Source: Yinghuangia soli (GTDB taxonomy: Bacteria; Actinomycetota; Actinomycetes; Streptomycetales; Streptomycetaceae). From it: 64,000 nucleotides of DNA. The DNA is taken from the NCBI RefSeq assembly GCF_021502675.1, contig NZ_JAKFHA010000005.1, forward strand, positions 201,596-265,595, given 5' to 3'. Of the stretch, positions 10,937-20,641 are shown one piece after another. The translations under genes were made by a program, and so were the position numbers. Below the pieces are notes generated by a model. That model saw only the letters and a program-made list of their open reading frames with translations, was not told the DNA's origin and did no database searches. Each line of letters starts with the position of its first letter. Within the stretch, counting starts at the first letter, position 1.

Positions 10937-11482
10937 TCATCCGGCCAGCAGCGCCACCAGCCGCCGGACCTGGTCCTCGGCCCGCACCGCGAGCTTGCGG
11001 TACGTCTCGATCGGCTCGCCCAGCGGGTCGGCCAGCTCGTCGCCGGCCCGGCTCATCCGCCGCTCGTCGCGCAGCTTGTCGACGTCCGCGGCCCACTCGC
11101 GCAGCGACCGCCCGTCCCGCGGCCCCGCGTCCGCACCGAGCCGGGCCAGCTCGCCCAGCACGAACGACCGCTCCGCGGCCGCCGCGGAATGCGCCCCGAC
11201 GCTCCACATGTGCTCGCGCGTCATGCCGAGCACCAGGTCCGCCTCGTCCAGCATCGCCGCGGTCATCTTGCGGCTGGTGTGGTCGTGCGCGGCGATCCCG
11301 TGCTCGCCCAGCACCTCCGCGCTCTCCGCGGTCATCCCGGCTTGGCCCCAGCCGATCGTGCCCGCCGACGCCACCGGCCAATCCGCAAGCCCCGCGGCCG
11401 CCAAGTGGTGCCGCAGCATCGCCTCGACCATCGGCGAACGGCAGATGTTCCCGGTGCAGATCACAAGAATCACGCGCGCCAC
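10937..11482 (-). CDS. low-molecular-weight protein-tyrosine phosphatase
   Basis: 181 residues. The P-loop CTGNICRS occupies residues 9-16 (nucleophile Cys9, Arg15), directly after the first strand, as in all LMW-PTPs. A distal DPLGEP segment supplies the probable general-acid aspartate. Actinomycete relatives dephosphorylate tyrosine phosphoproteins or arsenate; no capsule, kinase or arsenic genes are adjacent. The gene is divergent from the DUF5685 gene at 11698. Confidence 0.85.
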   Translation of the reverse strand: MARVILVICTGNICRSPMVEAMLRHHLAAAGLADWPVASAGTIGWGQAGMTAESAEVLGEHGIAAHDHTSRKMTAAMLDEADLVLGMTREHMWSVGAHSAAAAERSFVLGELARLGADAGPRDGRSLREWAADVDKLRDERRMSRAGDELADPLGEPIETYRKLAVRAEDQVRRLVALLAG

Positions 11483-13219: not shown

Positions 13220-15517
<2,298 letters not shown>

Positions 15518-15564: not shown

Positions 15565-16779
15565 TCACGCATCGAGCAGGCGGGCCCCCTGGGACACCGT
15601 GTCCAGGCTTTCCGTCAGCAACCGCCCGGGCGGCACGCCGAGGTCCGCGGTCAGCCGGTTGGTCGTCGCGCGCACCATCGCCTCGGAGCCGCTGATGAAC
15701 ACGTCGTGGTCGTGCCAGGACCCGTACGTGGCGATCACGTCCGGCAGCGTGCCGCGCGCCCCCTCGTACGACCGCTCGTCGGACACCGTCGGCACCACGT
15801 GCAGCCACGGGTACATCTCCGCCATCAGGTTCAGCGATGCGACGTCGTACAGCTCCGAGCTGTACCGGGCGCCGATGAAGACGTACGCCTCGTGCGCGAG
15901 CTGACGCTGCGCCATGTGCTCCACGAGCGCCTTGATCGGCGCCAGACCGGTACCCCCCGCGACGCACAGCGCCCGGCGCAGCGACTCGCCGCGCATCACC
16001 AGCGCCCCGCGTGCGGGCCCGAGTCTTATGTGGTCGCCCACCCGGGCACGGTGCACGAGGGCCTGGCTCACCCAGCCGGCGGGCAACGCCCGCACGTGCA
16101 GTTCCAGGAGGTTGTCGGGGCGCGGCGCGTTGGCGATCGAGTAGTGCCGCCATACCCGCGGCCACCACGGGGTCTCGACCGTCACATGCTGCCCGGGTCG
16201 GTAAGGGAGCAGCCGGTCCGGGGCCAGCGTGATGATCGCGATGTCCGAGCCGCGGCGCTCGTGCGCGATGATCTGGGCGTCCCACCAGGCCGGCGTGACG
16301 GCCGCGTCCTCGTCGGCGGCGCCGATCATCACCTCGGCCGCCCATGTGTACAGCGCCAGCCACGCATTGCGCGTCGCCGGGGTCCAGCGGTCGCGCGAGT
16401 AGCGGGCCAGCGCCCCGATCAGGGCCGCGCCGACCGCCCCGTAATGCTCGGACAGCACCCCGTACTTGCGGTGGTCGCGGCCCAGTTGGGCCAGGAACGC
16501 ACGCTGCGACTCCGGGTCGTGGGCACTCGTGCCCAGGCGCAGCAGGGCGGCGAGCAGCCGGTCGCGCTGCGCGTCCATCATCGGCGGGAACATCGACCGC
16601 AGGTCGGGCCGGTCGATGAAGAGCAGGGCATAGAAGTGCGACACCAGGCTGTCCGCGGCGGGGGCGACGAGCGCCAGGCTCTCCTGGATCAGCCGCGGGC
16701 CGTCCGGGCCGAGCGGCCCGGGCGCAGGCCCGGCGGGCGGCCCGACCGGGGGTGGGGCAGGCGGGACTGGAGCGTTCAT
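15565..16779 (-). CDS. flavohemoglobin (globin domain plus FAD/NAD reductase)
   Basis: 404 residues. After a Pro-rich lead, residues 25-150 form a globin with a B10-type tyrosine (HFYALLF), a distal glutamine region (MMDAQRDRLL) and the proximal histidine in DHRKYGV. The reductase half has the FAD motif WRHYSIAN and the NAD-binding GGTGLAPIKALVEHM. The protein should use NADH to oxidise nitric oxide to nitrate or to reduce other ligands. ATG at 16779 is used; a GTG nine bases upstream is the alternative. It heads a probable operon with the FdhF-type oxidoreductase, suggesting a shared response to nitrosative or oxygen-limited conditions. Confidence 0.85.
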   Translation of the reverse strand: MNAPVPPAPPPVGPPAGPAPGPLGPDGPRLIQESLALVAPAADSLVSHFYALLFIDRPDLRSMFPPMMDAQRDRLLAALLRLGTSAHDPESQRAFLAQLGRDHRKYGVLSEHYGAVGAALIGALARYSRDRWTPATRNAWLALYTWAAEVMIGAADEDAAVTPAWWDAQIIAHERRGSDIAIITLAPDRLLPYRPGQHVTVETPWWPRVWRHYSIANAPRPDNLLELHVRALPAGWVSQALVHRARVGDHIRLGPARGALVMRGESLRRALCVAGGTGLAPIKALVEHMAQRQLAHEAYVFIGARYSSELYDVASLNLMAEMYPWLHVVPTVSDERSYEGARGTLPDVIATYGSWHDHDVFISGSEAMVRATTNRLTADLGVPPGRLLTESLDTVSQGARLLDA

Positions 16780-17011: not shown

Positions 17012-20000
17012 TCAGCCGGTGGTACGCCCGAACTCCGCCGCCACGAGCTGGTTCGCGGACACCGCCGCGGCCGCGGCGTCGGTACCGGACAGCACCGCCC
17101 GGCCGAACTCCACGAGCGGACGCTCCGACCAGCCCGGCGCCACCGGATAGGGGCGGCCCCCGGCGGCCGCCGCCCCCGCGGCGGCGCGCAGCATCGGGTT
17201 CGGGCCGGGCGCCGCCTGCGCCGCGGTCCGCGGCGACATCACCCGGCTGTCCGCCGCGACCCGGTCCCGCCACTCGTTGCCGGACAGCAGCGCGAGTACC
17301 TGGACGGCGGCCTGGACGTCCCGGCATTTGGCCGACACAGCCAGCGCCGTCCCGCGCACGCCCACCGCGCTCGGCCGGTCCACCGCCTGCCCCGGGATCG
17401 CGAACGCGCCCAGTTGCGAGGCCAGTCCCGAGTTCGCGGCGAGCGCCGCGCCGTGCAGCGACACCGACCCGATCACCGACGCGGTGTCCTCGCGGGCGAA
17501 CATCTCGCCGATCTTCAGGTCCGCCTCGTCCAGGTCCTTGGCCTCCGGCGCGTACTGCTGCAGCTGCCGGAAGAAGCGCACCGCCTCGACCGAACCCGGC
17601 AGGTCGAACGCCCCGCGCCAGGAATCCCCTTCGCGCAGCGCCACGGATCCGCCCGCGTCCCACATCAGCGAGGCCAGCACCGGCCAGGCCTTGCCCGGCA
17701 GGCAGATGCTCCGGAACGACGGGTTGGCCGCGTAGTGCGCGCGCAACCGCTCCAGACCGTCGACCCACTCCTCGCGCGAGCGCGGCACCGCGACCCCGGC
17801 CGCGTTGTACATGCCCTGGTGGAACAGCACCACCGGCACGGACGCGGTCAGCGGCAGGGCGTACAGGCGTTCGCCGCTGCGCACCGTGCTGCGCAGCGCG
17901 GGCAGCCAGGTGTCGGCATCGAGCATGTCCTGATAGGGGGTCAGGTCCAGCAGGCGACCGGCGGCGATGTGGCCCGCCAGCGACAGTACGTCCACCTCGA
18001 CGATGTCCGGTGCCGCGGCACCGCCGCCGAGCAGCGCGGCCGCGATCCGGTCCGCGGCCGAGGCGCGCGGGAGGATCTCGGGCACCGCCAGGCGCGTGTT
18101 CGCCGGCAGTTTGCCCTGCAGCGCCTCGGCCAGCAGCGGCGGATGCGCGGGGGCGAGCGAGCCTTCGAGGAACCACGTGCGCAGCTCGACGCCGGCCACC
18201 GTCGGCATCATGGACGGCTCCGCGGCCGGCGCGGTCCGCACCTTCTTGTCCGAACCGCCGTCGCCGCCCCAGAGCACCGCGCCCGTCGCGGCGCCGGCCA
18301 GCAGCGCGGCACCGCCCGCCACCCATGCCAGGAACCGGCGCCGTTCGGCGGGGTCGTGCGCGGGTCCGGCGGGCGCCCGGCGGGGGGCGGTGACCGGCTC
18401 GGCCTGCGGCATGCCGCCGGGGTCGCGGCGTGCCCTGCGCCCTTCGCGCGGCGGACGCCCGGGAGCGGCTCCGGCGGCCTCGGCAGCGGACTGACCGGAC
18501 GGACCGGACGCCGTATCCGGACCGGAAGCACCGCCGGTCGCATCCGGCGGCGGCGCGGCGTGGCGTCCTGCGCCGCCCGGACGGCCGGGCAGGTCGGTGA
18601 CGCCGGGCTGGGCGGACGCGGAGGCTCGCGGCGGCAGCGGCTCGTCGTCGTCGACGAGTTCGGCCTCGATGATCTCGTCGTCGACGATCTCGACAGGCTC
18701 GTCGGGCAGCGGGACGAAGATCCGGGCGGTCACCGGCTGCTCGTCGGCGGTGTCGGCGCCGCCGGTGCCGTCCACCGGCGGCGCGTCGGTCGGTGCGTCG
18801 GCGGGCGAGGCGGCGTGCGTGAGCGCCGCGGCCGGCCCGCCGAAGACCCGCGGTCCCGCGGGGGCCGCGGGGACCGGGGGAGCAGCGGGCCCGGCAGGCG
18901 TGGCGGGCACGCCGCCGGAGGCAGCGGTTCCCGGACGCACGGGTGTGTAGCCCGTGGACCCCGGCCCGCCCGGAGCCGGCGGAGCTTCGGCAGCTTCCGC
19001 AGCCGCGGGTGCGGCAGGTGAGGTCGGCGCGGCCGGCGCGCCGCCGGGGGCGGTCGTCCCGGGCCGCGCGGGCGTGTAGCCCGCGGACTCGGGCCCGCCC
19101 GGAGCCTCGGCACCTTGCGCAGCCGCGGGCGCGGTAGGGGCGACGCCGGGGGCGGTCGTCCCCGGGCGCACGGGCGTGTAGCGGGCGGCCCCCGGCCCAC
19201 CCGGAGCCGGCGGAGCTTGCGTACGGCCCGCCGCCGCGCGCGCATCATCCGCCGCCGCGCTGCCAGTTGCCGGTCCGGTCGGCGAAGTCCCGCGGTGGGA
19301 ATTTCCGTTCGCGGCTGCCGAGGGTTCGGGCGCCGGAGGCTGGGGCGGCATCGGCGGTACGGCGGCACTTCCACGCGGCGGAATCTGCCCGGCCGCAGGC
19401 GGCCCGGGCGGCATAGGCGGTACGGGAGCACCTCCGCGTGCGGGCGTCGGGCCCGGCGCCCCCGTTGCCTGTGCGGACGGCATGGGCGGCACACCGGCAC
19501 CATCACGCGGCGGAATCTGCCCGGCCGCGGCGGCCGTTGCCCCCGCAGCCGATGCGGGCGGCATGGGCGGCACAGGCGGTGTCTGGACCGTGGGCGGCAT
19601 CGGCGGCACCGGACCGCGCGGCCCGCCCGCGGCACCTTGCGTACCCGCCGCGCCCATTCCGCCCGCGCCGACTCCGGTCGCCGTCGCGCCGCGGAACGCA
19701 TCCACCCGCTCCTGGCCCGAACGGGCATGCGGCACCTGGCCCGCGCTCGCGCTCGCGTGCGCCCACAGCGTCGCCGCGCGGTGCGCGACCTCGCCGGCCA
19801 GGTTGCCCGGCAGCCAGCCCGGACCGTCCAGTTCGCTGGCCGTGGCCATGTGGATCTGCGCGGCCGTGGGCCGGTCCGCCGGGTCCTTCGCCAGGCAGGC
19901 GGACGCCAACTCCCTTAGCCACGAGGGCAGCACGTCCAGTTCGGGAGCGTCCCGGAGAACCCGCTCGCCGACCTGCGGCGCGCTGTCGTCGCCGAACGGC

Positions 20001-20641
20001 CCGCACCCCGTGGCCGCGTACACCAGCACCGAGCCGAGCGAGAAGATGTCGGCAGCCGGACCCGCGACGCGGCCGTCCAGTTGCTCGGGGGCGCGGAACG
20101 CCGGTGCGGGCAGCACCGTTCCGGCGACCACGCCGGCATCGCTCACGGAAGGGCCGTCGGGGCTGCGCGCCACGCCCAGATCGACGATGCGCGGCCCGTC
20201 CGGGGCCAGCGACACCTGCGTCGGGCCCATCCGGCCGTGCGTGAGCCCGGCCGCGTGCAGCGCGTCGAGCGCGCCCGCGAGTCCCGCAGCCAGCGTGCGC
20301 ACACTGTGCAGAGGCAGCGGGCCGTACTTCTCCACGGCCTCCTGCAGACCGGGCCCAGGGGAGTACGCGGTGGCCAGCCACAGCACCGGACCGCCGACTT
20401 CGGCGTCCACGACGGGGACCGCATAAGGATGGTCGACCCGGCGCGCGGCGGCCACCTCGCGCGCGAAGCGGGCGCGGAACGCGGCACTGCGGGACGGCAC
20501 CGGCCGCACCGCCTTGAGCACGATCGGACGGCCCTCCGCGGTCGCGCCCAGGAAGACCTGCGCGGTCGCGCCCTCGCCGAGCACGGCGACCAGCCGGTGG
20601 CCGCCGATCTGCCGCGGATCGTCCTTGTGCAGGGGCCGCAT
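17012..20641 (-). CDS. pseudokinase / extracellular solute-binding fusion protein
   Basis: 1209 residues. Residues 13-270 form a Ser/Thr kinase fold: a glycine-rich loop (GEGATAQVF), Lys43, Glu62 and a DLG at 154. The catalytic HRD is HGR (135-137), so the catalytic aspartate is replaced by arginine; the following lysine is glycine and the metal-binding asparagine is Gln142. A Pro/Ala-rich linker of nearly 500 residues leads to one membrane helix at about 771-793. The remaining 400 residues resemble an ABC-type sugar solute-binding protein. The topology suggests outside ligand binding with an inside pseudokinase, a receptor-like design. ATG 20641 starts MRPLHKDDPRQIGGHRLV. Catalysis is unlikely but untested. 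Confidence 0.85.
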   Translation of the reverse strand: MRPLHKDDPRQIGGHRLVAVLGEGATAQVFLGATAEGRPIVLKAVRPVPSRSAAFRARFAREVAAARRVDHPYAVPVVDAEVGGPVLWLATAYSPGPGLQEAVEKYGPLPLHSVRTLAAGLAGALDALHAAGLTHGRMGPTQVSLAPDGPRIVDLGVARSPDGPSVSDAGVVAGTVLPAPAFRAPEQLDGRVAGPAADIFSLGSVLVYAATGCGPFGDDSAPQVGERVLRDAPELDVLPSWLRELASACLAKDPADRPTAAQIHMATASELDGPGWLPGNLAGEVAHRAATLWAHASASAGQVPHARSGQERVDAFRGATATGVGAGGMGAAGTQGAAGGPRGPVPPMPPTVQTPPVPPMPPASAAGATAAAAGQIPPRDGAGVPPMPSAQATGAPGPTPARGGAPVPPMPPGPPAAGQIPPRGSAAVPPMPPQPPAPEPSAAANGNSHRGTSPTGPATGSAAADDARAAAGRTQAPPAPGGPGAARYTPVRPGTTAPGVAPTAPAAAQGAEAPGGPESAGYTPARPGTTAPGGAPAAPTSPAAPAAAEAAEAPPAPGGPGSTGYTPVRPGTAASGGVPATPAGPAAPPVPAAPAGPRVFGGPAAALTHAASPADAPTDAPPVDGTGGADTADEQPVTARIFVPLPDEPVEIVDDEIIEAELVDDDEPLPPRASASAQPGVTDLPGRPGGAGRHAAPPPDATGGASGPDTASGPSGQSAAEAAGAAPGRPPREGRRARRDPGGMPQAEPVTAPRRAPAGPAHDPAERRRFLAWVAGGAALLAGAATGAVLWGGDGGSDKKVRTAPAAEPSMMPTVAGVELRTWFLEGSLAPAHPPLLAEALQGKLPANTRLAVPEILPRASAADRIAAALLGGGAAAPDIVEVDVLSLAGHIAAGRLLDLTPYQDMLDADTWLPALRSTVRSGERLYALPLTASVPVVLFHQGMYNAAGVAVPRSREEWVDGLERLRAHYAANPSFRSICLPGKAWPVLASLMWDAGGSVALREGDSWRGAFDLPGSVEAVRFFRQLQQYAPEAKDLDEADLKIGEMFAREDTASVIGSVSLHGAALAANSGLASQLGAFAIPGQAVDRPSAVGVRGTALAVSAKCRDVQAAVQVLALLSGNEWRDRVAADSRVMSPRTAAQAAPGPNPMLRAAAGAAAAGGRPYPVAPGWSERPLVEFGRAVLSGTDAAAAAVSANQLVAAEFGRTTG

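Follow-up and report, generated by a model that had tools for sequence, protein, structure and literature searches.

A kinase fold without its catalytic aspartate, fused to a solute-binding domain, in Yinghuangia and Embleya

Architecture of the fusion and its altered active site

The stretch of DNA analysed here (64,000 nucleotides of Yinghuangia soli contig NZ_JAKFHA010000005.1, positions 201,596 to 265,595; hereafter the window) carries at 17012..20641, on the minus strand, an open reading frame for a protein of 1209 residues, in which translation and Pfam matches identify a pseudokinase domain followed by a linker, a membrane helix and a solute-binding domain. All features of this frame given below lie on the same strand, on which the original prediction for this DNA was silent. 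The Pfam Pkinase model (PF00069) matches residues 19-263 (E 1e-24, 87.8 bits against a gathering cut-off of 31.7), and SBP_bac_1 matches the C-terminal part (E 5.8e-10, 40.1 bits against a cut-off of 26). Guanine-cytosine content at third codon positions (0.90 for the kinase, 0.94 for the helix with the solute-binding domain) fits the expectation for high-GC coding DNA. The claim that this is a one-piece protein held up: a pseudokinase domain that is conserved, a single predicted membrane helix and the fold of a solute-binding protein are found together in the chain.

The pseudokinase domain comprises residues 1-272 (19826..20641). When both ends of the protein were modelled with AlphaFold 2, as the original prediction had proposed, confident structures were obtained, with a mean predicted local distance difference test (pLDDT) score of 88.9 for residues 1-280 and 89.3 for residues 795-1209; residues 161-177 of the activation segment scored below 50. 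Foldseek returned the kinases PknB and PknA as top matches for the kinase part, and AfsK (NF053615) was the best-scoring NCBIfam kinase model, at 183 bits falling far below its curated cut-off of 1300.

Where the catalytic loop of an active kinase would read HRDxKxxN, the window protein has HGRMGPTQ (residues 135-142, 20216..20239), as confirmed by a residue check and by comparison with orthologues. With Arg137 at the site of the catalytic aspartate, the domain lacks the HRD motif of a competent Ser/Thr kinase. Each residue named beforehand proved correct in the translation: Lys43, Glu62, HGR at 135-137, Gly139, Gln142 and the DLG motif at 154. Alignment with 23 active kinases showed further changes. 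The glycine-rich loop is altered to GEGATAQVF (residues 22-30, 20552..20578), the third glycine of GxGxxG being lost; Gly-Met-Gly at positions 25-27 occurs in all 23 active kinases and in none of six pseudokinase orthologues. This glycine of the adenosine triphosphate (ATP) loop, the catalytic-loop lysine and the metal-binding asparagine are missing from all six aligned orthologues. The activation segment GTVLPAPAFRAPEQ (residues 174-187, 20081..20122) includes a four-residue insertion ahead of the APE region, again in 6/6 orthologues and 0/23 active kinases. The β3 lysine, the αC glutamate and the aspartate at the DFG position are all retained in the three Yinghuangia proteins, the window protein among them. 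The last of these lies in DLG (residues 154-156, 20174..20182), and orthologue comparison showed this metal-binding aspartate to be present in Yinghuangia and gone in Embleya, where it is replaced by His, His, Gly or Thr in the four domains, all of which have arginine for the β3 lysine.

Conservation and ancestry of the pseudokinase

The search for the same HGR-for-HRD change in orthologous fusions, also proposed beforehand, revealed HGR in all seven orthologous kinase domains, the window's included (3/3 Yinghuangia and 4/4 Embleya genomes examined). A search with the solute-binding part of 20 relatives and of the window genome itself recovered orthologues in two further Yinghuangia genomes and one Embleya genome. 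We then scanned 101 genomes, a sample of the family, with a profile built from six HGR domains, scoring the best 24 candidates per genome. Matches at E ≤1.5e-136 were confined to seven genomes of Yinghuangia and Embleya, six of which had contributed to the profile itself and the seventh of which (Embleya G023) was independent of it. The next best match scored 4.8e-97, and all five next-best kinase domains that were fetched (L121-L125) read HRDLKPSN; the gap in E values and these five domains led us to reject a broader clade of HGR kinases across the family.

These results dispose of sequencing error or a lone aberrant copy as the source of the motif, which the original prediction had named as a ground for its own refutation, because HGR recurs in all seven orthologous domains and the HRD-bearing fusions that we did find are paralogues outside their clade. 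Nor is HGR a chance feature, given this recurrence and the fact that 44 of the 47 other kinase-domain reading frames found in the window genome retain the HRD aspartate, in a census that scored 150 of 161 candidates in one search and may be incomplete. The remaining three are kinase folds without the aspartate in their own right: L061:175-2298 (HQGLAAGT, with arginine for the β3 lysine), L063:3-2729 (HGSVKPSN, with DFG retained and a PQQ-type domain) and L083:682-3399 (HGAVVPGN and DGG, with a PQQ-type domain).

The kinase tree comprised 32 domains (six orthologues, two HRD-bearing sisters, four Streptomyces fusions and, from the window genome, 20 of its 47 other kinases), and in it the six orthologues formed one clade with support of 100/99. 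It covers all orthologues but that of G023 and carries a long-branch warning for L083 and L063, both of which lie elsewhere in it. Outside the clade fell the HRD fusions of Y. seranimata and Embleya sp. NBC_00888, as well as the Streptomyces fusions of a kinase with Peripla_BP_6.

All six orthologues visible whole have full-length reading frames; in G023 the pseudokinase lies at a contig edge with the fusion out of view, and the solute-binding domain first found in that genome belongs to a kinase-less tandem gene on another contig. By sequence and models, the fusion has passed down as a single unit from before the split between Yinghuangia and Embleya. Within Yinghuangia the kinase domain is better conserved than either the linker or the solute-binding domain: the window protein is identical to that of Y. 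seranimata at 73% of positions in the kinase domain, 41% in the linker and 60% in the solute-binding domain, and to that of G002 at 69%, 45% and 58%, with overall ranges among Yinghuangia of 66-73% (kinase), 57-60% (solute-binding domain) and 31-45% (aligned parts of the linker). The ratio of non-synonymous to synonymous substitution rates (dN/dS, Nei-Gojobori) in the kinase domain runs from 0.30 to 0.40 within Yinghuangia and from 0.12 to 0.28 within Embleya. The pseudokinase domain is therefore held by purifying selection, on the strength of which we reject pseudogene decay. A loss common to two genera, in a fold under selection, points to what is probably a working receptor that does not phosphorylate, rather than to an error or a decaying gene.

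Binding domain, helix, linker and neighbouring genes

The solute-binding domain (residues 827-1209, 17015..18163) has the SBP_bac_1 fold according to Pfam, AlphaFold 2 and Foldseek, the top Foldseek match being a β-glycoside-binding protein of an ATP-binding cassette (ABC) transporter (7c70, template-modelling score 0.77, 23% identity). We compared it with 19 free-standing solute-binding proteins of the family, in which 132 columns are at least 85% conserved. At least five of the six orthologues keep 54 of these columns, many of them Pro, Trp, Gly or Leu. The GNTQ block is gone, and just the proline and one alanine of PWYAANR are left; these blocks presumably line the ligand pocket of the free-standing relatives, which would bind sugar. 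Of the earlier description of a sugar-binding domain, the fold stands, but these conserved positions lend the sugar no support. At Asp884, Val935 and Pro936 the replacements are identical in all six orthologues, which speaks for a ligand or role that has changed and against free decay. Outside the two genera, relatives of the domain were found at 39 places at E ≤1e-42 with 29-34% identity (150 genomes, 11 candidates per genome). None of the 24 of these places that were inspected had a kinase domain alongside, within 1500-base flanks that may miss a kinase behind a long linker, so that within this reach we discarded the idea that binding domains of this type are fused to kinases elsewhere.

Ahead of the binding domain lies a twin-arginine motif, RRRFL, with the membrane helix (residues 767-791, 18269..18343). 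The helix had originally been placed at about residues 771-793. Motif comparison showed RR[RG]FL at the helix start in 6/6 orthologues; of four Streptomyces fusions examined, two have RRxFL as well. A helix led by RRxFL suggests export by the twin-arginine translocation (Tat) pathway and looks like a Tat signal placed within the chain. Actinobacterial Rieske proteins are a documented case of internal Tat signals, which in them follow two Sec-inserted helices (PMC5449189); a text search of that paper did not find the word 'kinase'. If the signal is genuine, its position between two folded domains would pose an unusual export problem.

The linker (residues 273-766, 18344..19825) was delimited by composition and domain-wise alignment; its 494 residues agree with the Pro/Ala-rich stretch of about 500 residues first described, and residues 281-760 contain 115 Ala and 101 Pro. 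Within this variable region, comparison of the orthologous linkers by eye picked out an acidic motif, EIIEAELVDDDEPLPPRA (residues 656-673, 18623..18676), which is retained with small changes in all three Yinghuangia linkers and could be made out in none of the three Embleya linkers inspected. A search of the window genome for the motif gave a sole other match, at E 6.9. We regard it as a candidate docking site; it may bear a likeness to the acidic tail of DnaK.

Two genes downstream of the fusion are conserved near it. An FdhF/YdeP-family molybdopterin oxidoreductase (window 13220-15517) is adjacent to the fusion or one to two genes off in 6/6 mapped species. A globin-FAD/NAD reductase (window 15565-16779) and acyl-CoA dehydrogenases are each found nearby in 5/6 mapped species, the window counted; neither was found in the mapped stretch of G002. 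A gene for a low-molecular-weight tyrosine phosphatase (window 10937-11482, about 5.5 kb downstream) is present in the Y. seranimata locus too. In E. hyalina, E. scabrispora and G005 the pseudokinase fusion is followed by a tandem gene that has a linker, an RR motif, a helix and a domain like the solute-binding one, with no kinase domain (L032:8395-10656, minus strand; L037:11022-13154, plus strand; L039:10824-12752, plus strand). The L032 copy has no Pfam match, and the corresponding kinase-less gene of G023 is 53% identical to its G005 counterpart. Two E. hyalina contigs, L037 and L038, carry the region at identical coordinates and are probably an assembly duplicate.

Related systems and the proposed mode of signalling

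Among the closest known systems are two HRD fusions, one of Y. seranimata (L030:14686-17541), where it lies beyond the oxidoreductase, and one of Embleya sp. NBC_00888 (L001). These share the layout of the window protein and the class of its binding domain (SBP_bac_8, plus SBP_bac_1 in L030), with RRRFI ahead of the helix in both. Unlike it, they have HRDLKPSN and DFG, and they form a separate pair in the kinase tree (99/95). Streptomyces proteins that join a kinase to an ABC-type solute-binding domain (WP_112443064.1 and WP_331752712.1) likewise have an N-terminal AfsK-like kinase, a linker, one helix preceded by RRxFL and a binding-protein domain. They differ from the window protein, however, in an intact HRDVKPGN, in the Pfam family of their binding domain, Peripla_BP_6, and in kinases that lie outside the pseudokinase clade; the combination of intact HRD and Peripla_BP_6 that marks the four Streptomyces bifunctional proteins examined is absent from the window protein. 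The window genome itself also encodes an ordinary HRD kinase fused to Peripla_BP_6 (L055:522-3500), whose kinase domain is 50% identical to that of the window protein; its product is a candidate partner for the pseudokinase.

Further afield, kinase and solute-binding domains share one polypeptide in MSMEG_1200/StpK7 as described in the available portion of PMC6069109, which bears out the earlier statement that such fusions are known. We compared the window protein with StpK7 through its model (NF052427) rather than its sequence, and the resulting 71 bits lie below the curated cut-off of 900. The same available portion puts forward for GlnH-GlnX-PknG that a solute-binding protein outside controls Ser/Thr-kinase signalling inside, much as proposed here, although that system consists of three separate proteins with an amino-acid-binding protein and an active kinase. 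Pseudokinases that are conserved in actinobacteria and end in a different domain are also in print: PMC12599244 describes ActPs1, a kinase fold whose catalytic residues are lost and many members of which have a further C-terminal domain. There this domain is of PQQ type, whereas in the window protein it is a solute-binding one, and the catalytic residues substituted are 3/3 in ActPs1, 1/3 in the window protein and 3/3 in the Embleya orthologues. By description, which is how the two were compared rather than by a family model, the window protein thus falls outside ActPs1, with its three substitutions and frequent PQQ domain. No report of a pseudokinase combined with a solute-binding domain was found in the literature searched, a search outside which most subscription journals lie. 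What appears to be new here is this combination, each element of which is separately known.

On balance, we favour a conserved transmembrane pseudokinase receptor that would signal by binding. The helix would serve as an internal Tat signal-anchor, leaving the kinase fold inside the cell and placing the folded solute-binding domain outside. There, by analogy with the proposal for GlnH-GlnX-PknG (PMC6069109, in the portion available), the binding domain would sense a solute, and ligand binding would alter how the protein is paired or spaced. The pseudokinase would relay the signal through contact with a second protein, the likeliest being an active kinase of the AfsK type or the substrate of such a kinase, without phosphorylation and without a conserved requirement for ATP. 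More tentatively, and with some doubt on our part, the proteins may represent a class of one-polypeptide receptors in which Tat exports the solute-binding domain by way of an internal signal-anchor, and this domain controls a pseudokinase that is independent of nucleotide and acts on an active kinase in trans. Such receptors would be the bacterial equivalent of the receptor pseudokinases of eukaryotes.

Several observations weigh against a receptor that signals by binding. Kinase dN/dS between Yinghuangia and Embleya is higher, at 0.38-0.58, in a comparison where synonymous sites are partly saturated, and between the genera the kinase (48-52%) and solute-binding domains (42-47%) are about equally conserved. 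Of the 37 other membrane kinases in the window genome, 13 have a loose RR-x-hydrophobic motif ahead of their helix, so that twin arginines alone are not specific, although none of the 13 has the strict RRxF[LIM] in the printed stretches as read by eye. Since a further close relative of the fusion's binding domain was found neither in the window genome nor in G002 (E limit 1e-40), a sister fusion of the same class is not a general candidate for the partner. Finally, the intact β3 lysine, αC glutamate and DLG aspartate make some use of nucleotide possible in Yinghuangia.

Two alternatives start from this last point. In the nucleotide-gated scaffold of the original prediction, ATP binding, rather than transfer, switches the pseudokinase, as Lys43-Glu62 and DLG in Yinghuangia would allow; alternatively, the Yinghuangia proteins, all three of which have Lys, Glu and Asp, bind ATP through Lys43, Glu62 and Asp154 and phosphorylate slowly without the HRD aspartate. 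The first meets the loss of the third glycine and the metal-binding asparagine in all six aligned orthologues and the second, in addition, that of the HRD aspartate and the catalytic-loop lysine, and both are confronted by Embleya domains without the β3 lysine and the DFG aspartate. Because of Embleya, an ATP-binding role can apply at most to some members of the clade, barring a changed mode of binding, and 'ATP-binding' is not supported as a general statement. We therefore hold the scaffold unlikely and the residual kinase a little more so.

It is improbable that the fold carries out another ATP-dependent transfer, such as the AMPylation of SelO or the glutamylation of SidJ. SelO requires an asparagine and an aspartate of its loop. 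According to PMC12599244, kinase folds without a canonical catalytic motif are capable of such chemistry, and SidJ needs a repurposed ATP- and metal-binding lysine and aspartate; none of the four Embleya domains retains the residue at either position, which makes SidJ-like chemistry unlikely across the clade. Least probable of all is a decaying relic of a kinase fusion, kept for its binding domain alone or not at all. The DFG position does vary within Embleya, and the tandem gene of three Embleya lacks a kinase domain, but the purifying selection on the kinase domain, its place as the most conserved part in Yinghuangia and the full-length frames of the orthologues all speak for a maintained protein.

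The receptor that we favour would bear on two themes in bacterial signalling: pseudokinases of bacteria are, according to PMC12599244, experimentally largely unexplored, and PMC6069109 calls it an outstanding question what stimuli activate the Ser/Thr kinases of bacteria. Since an HRD sister of the same architecture lies close by in Y. seranimata, domain swaps and residue-by-residue comparison are feasible. In these cultured genera, one conserved chain unites two candidate domains, one for the input and one for the output.

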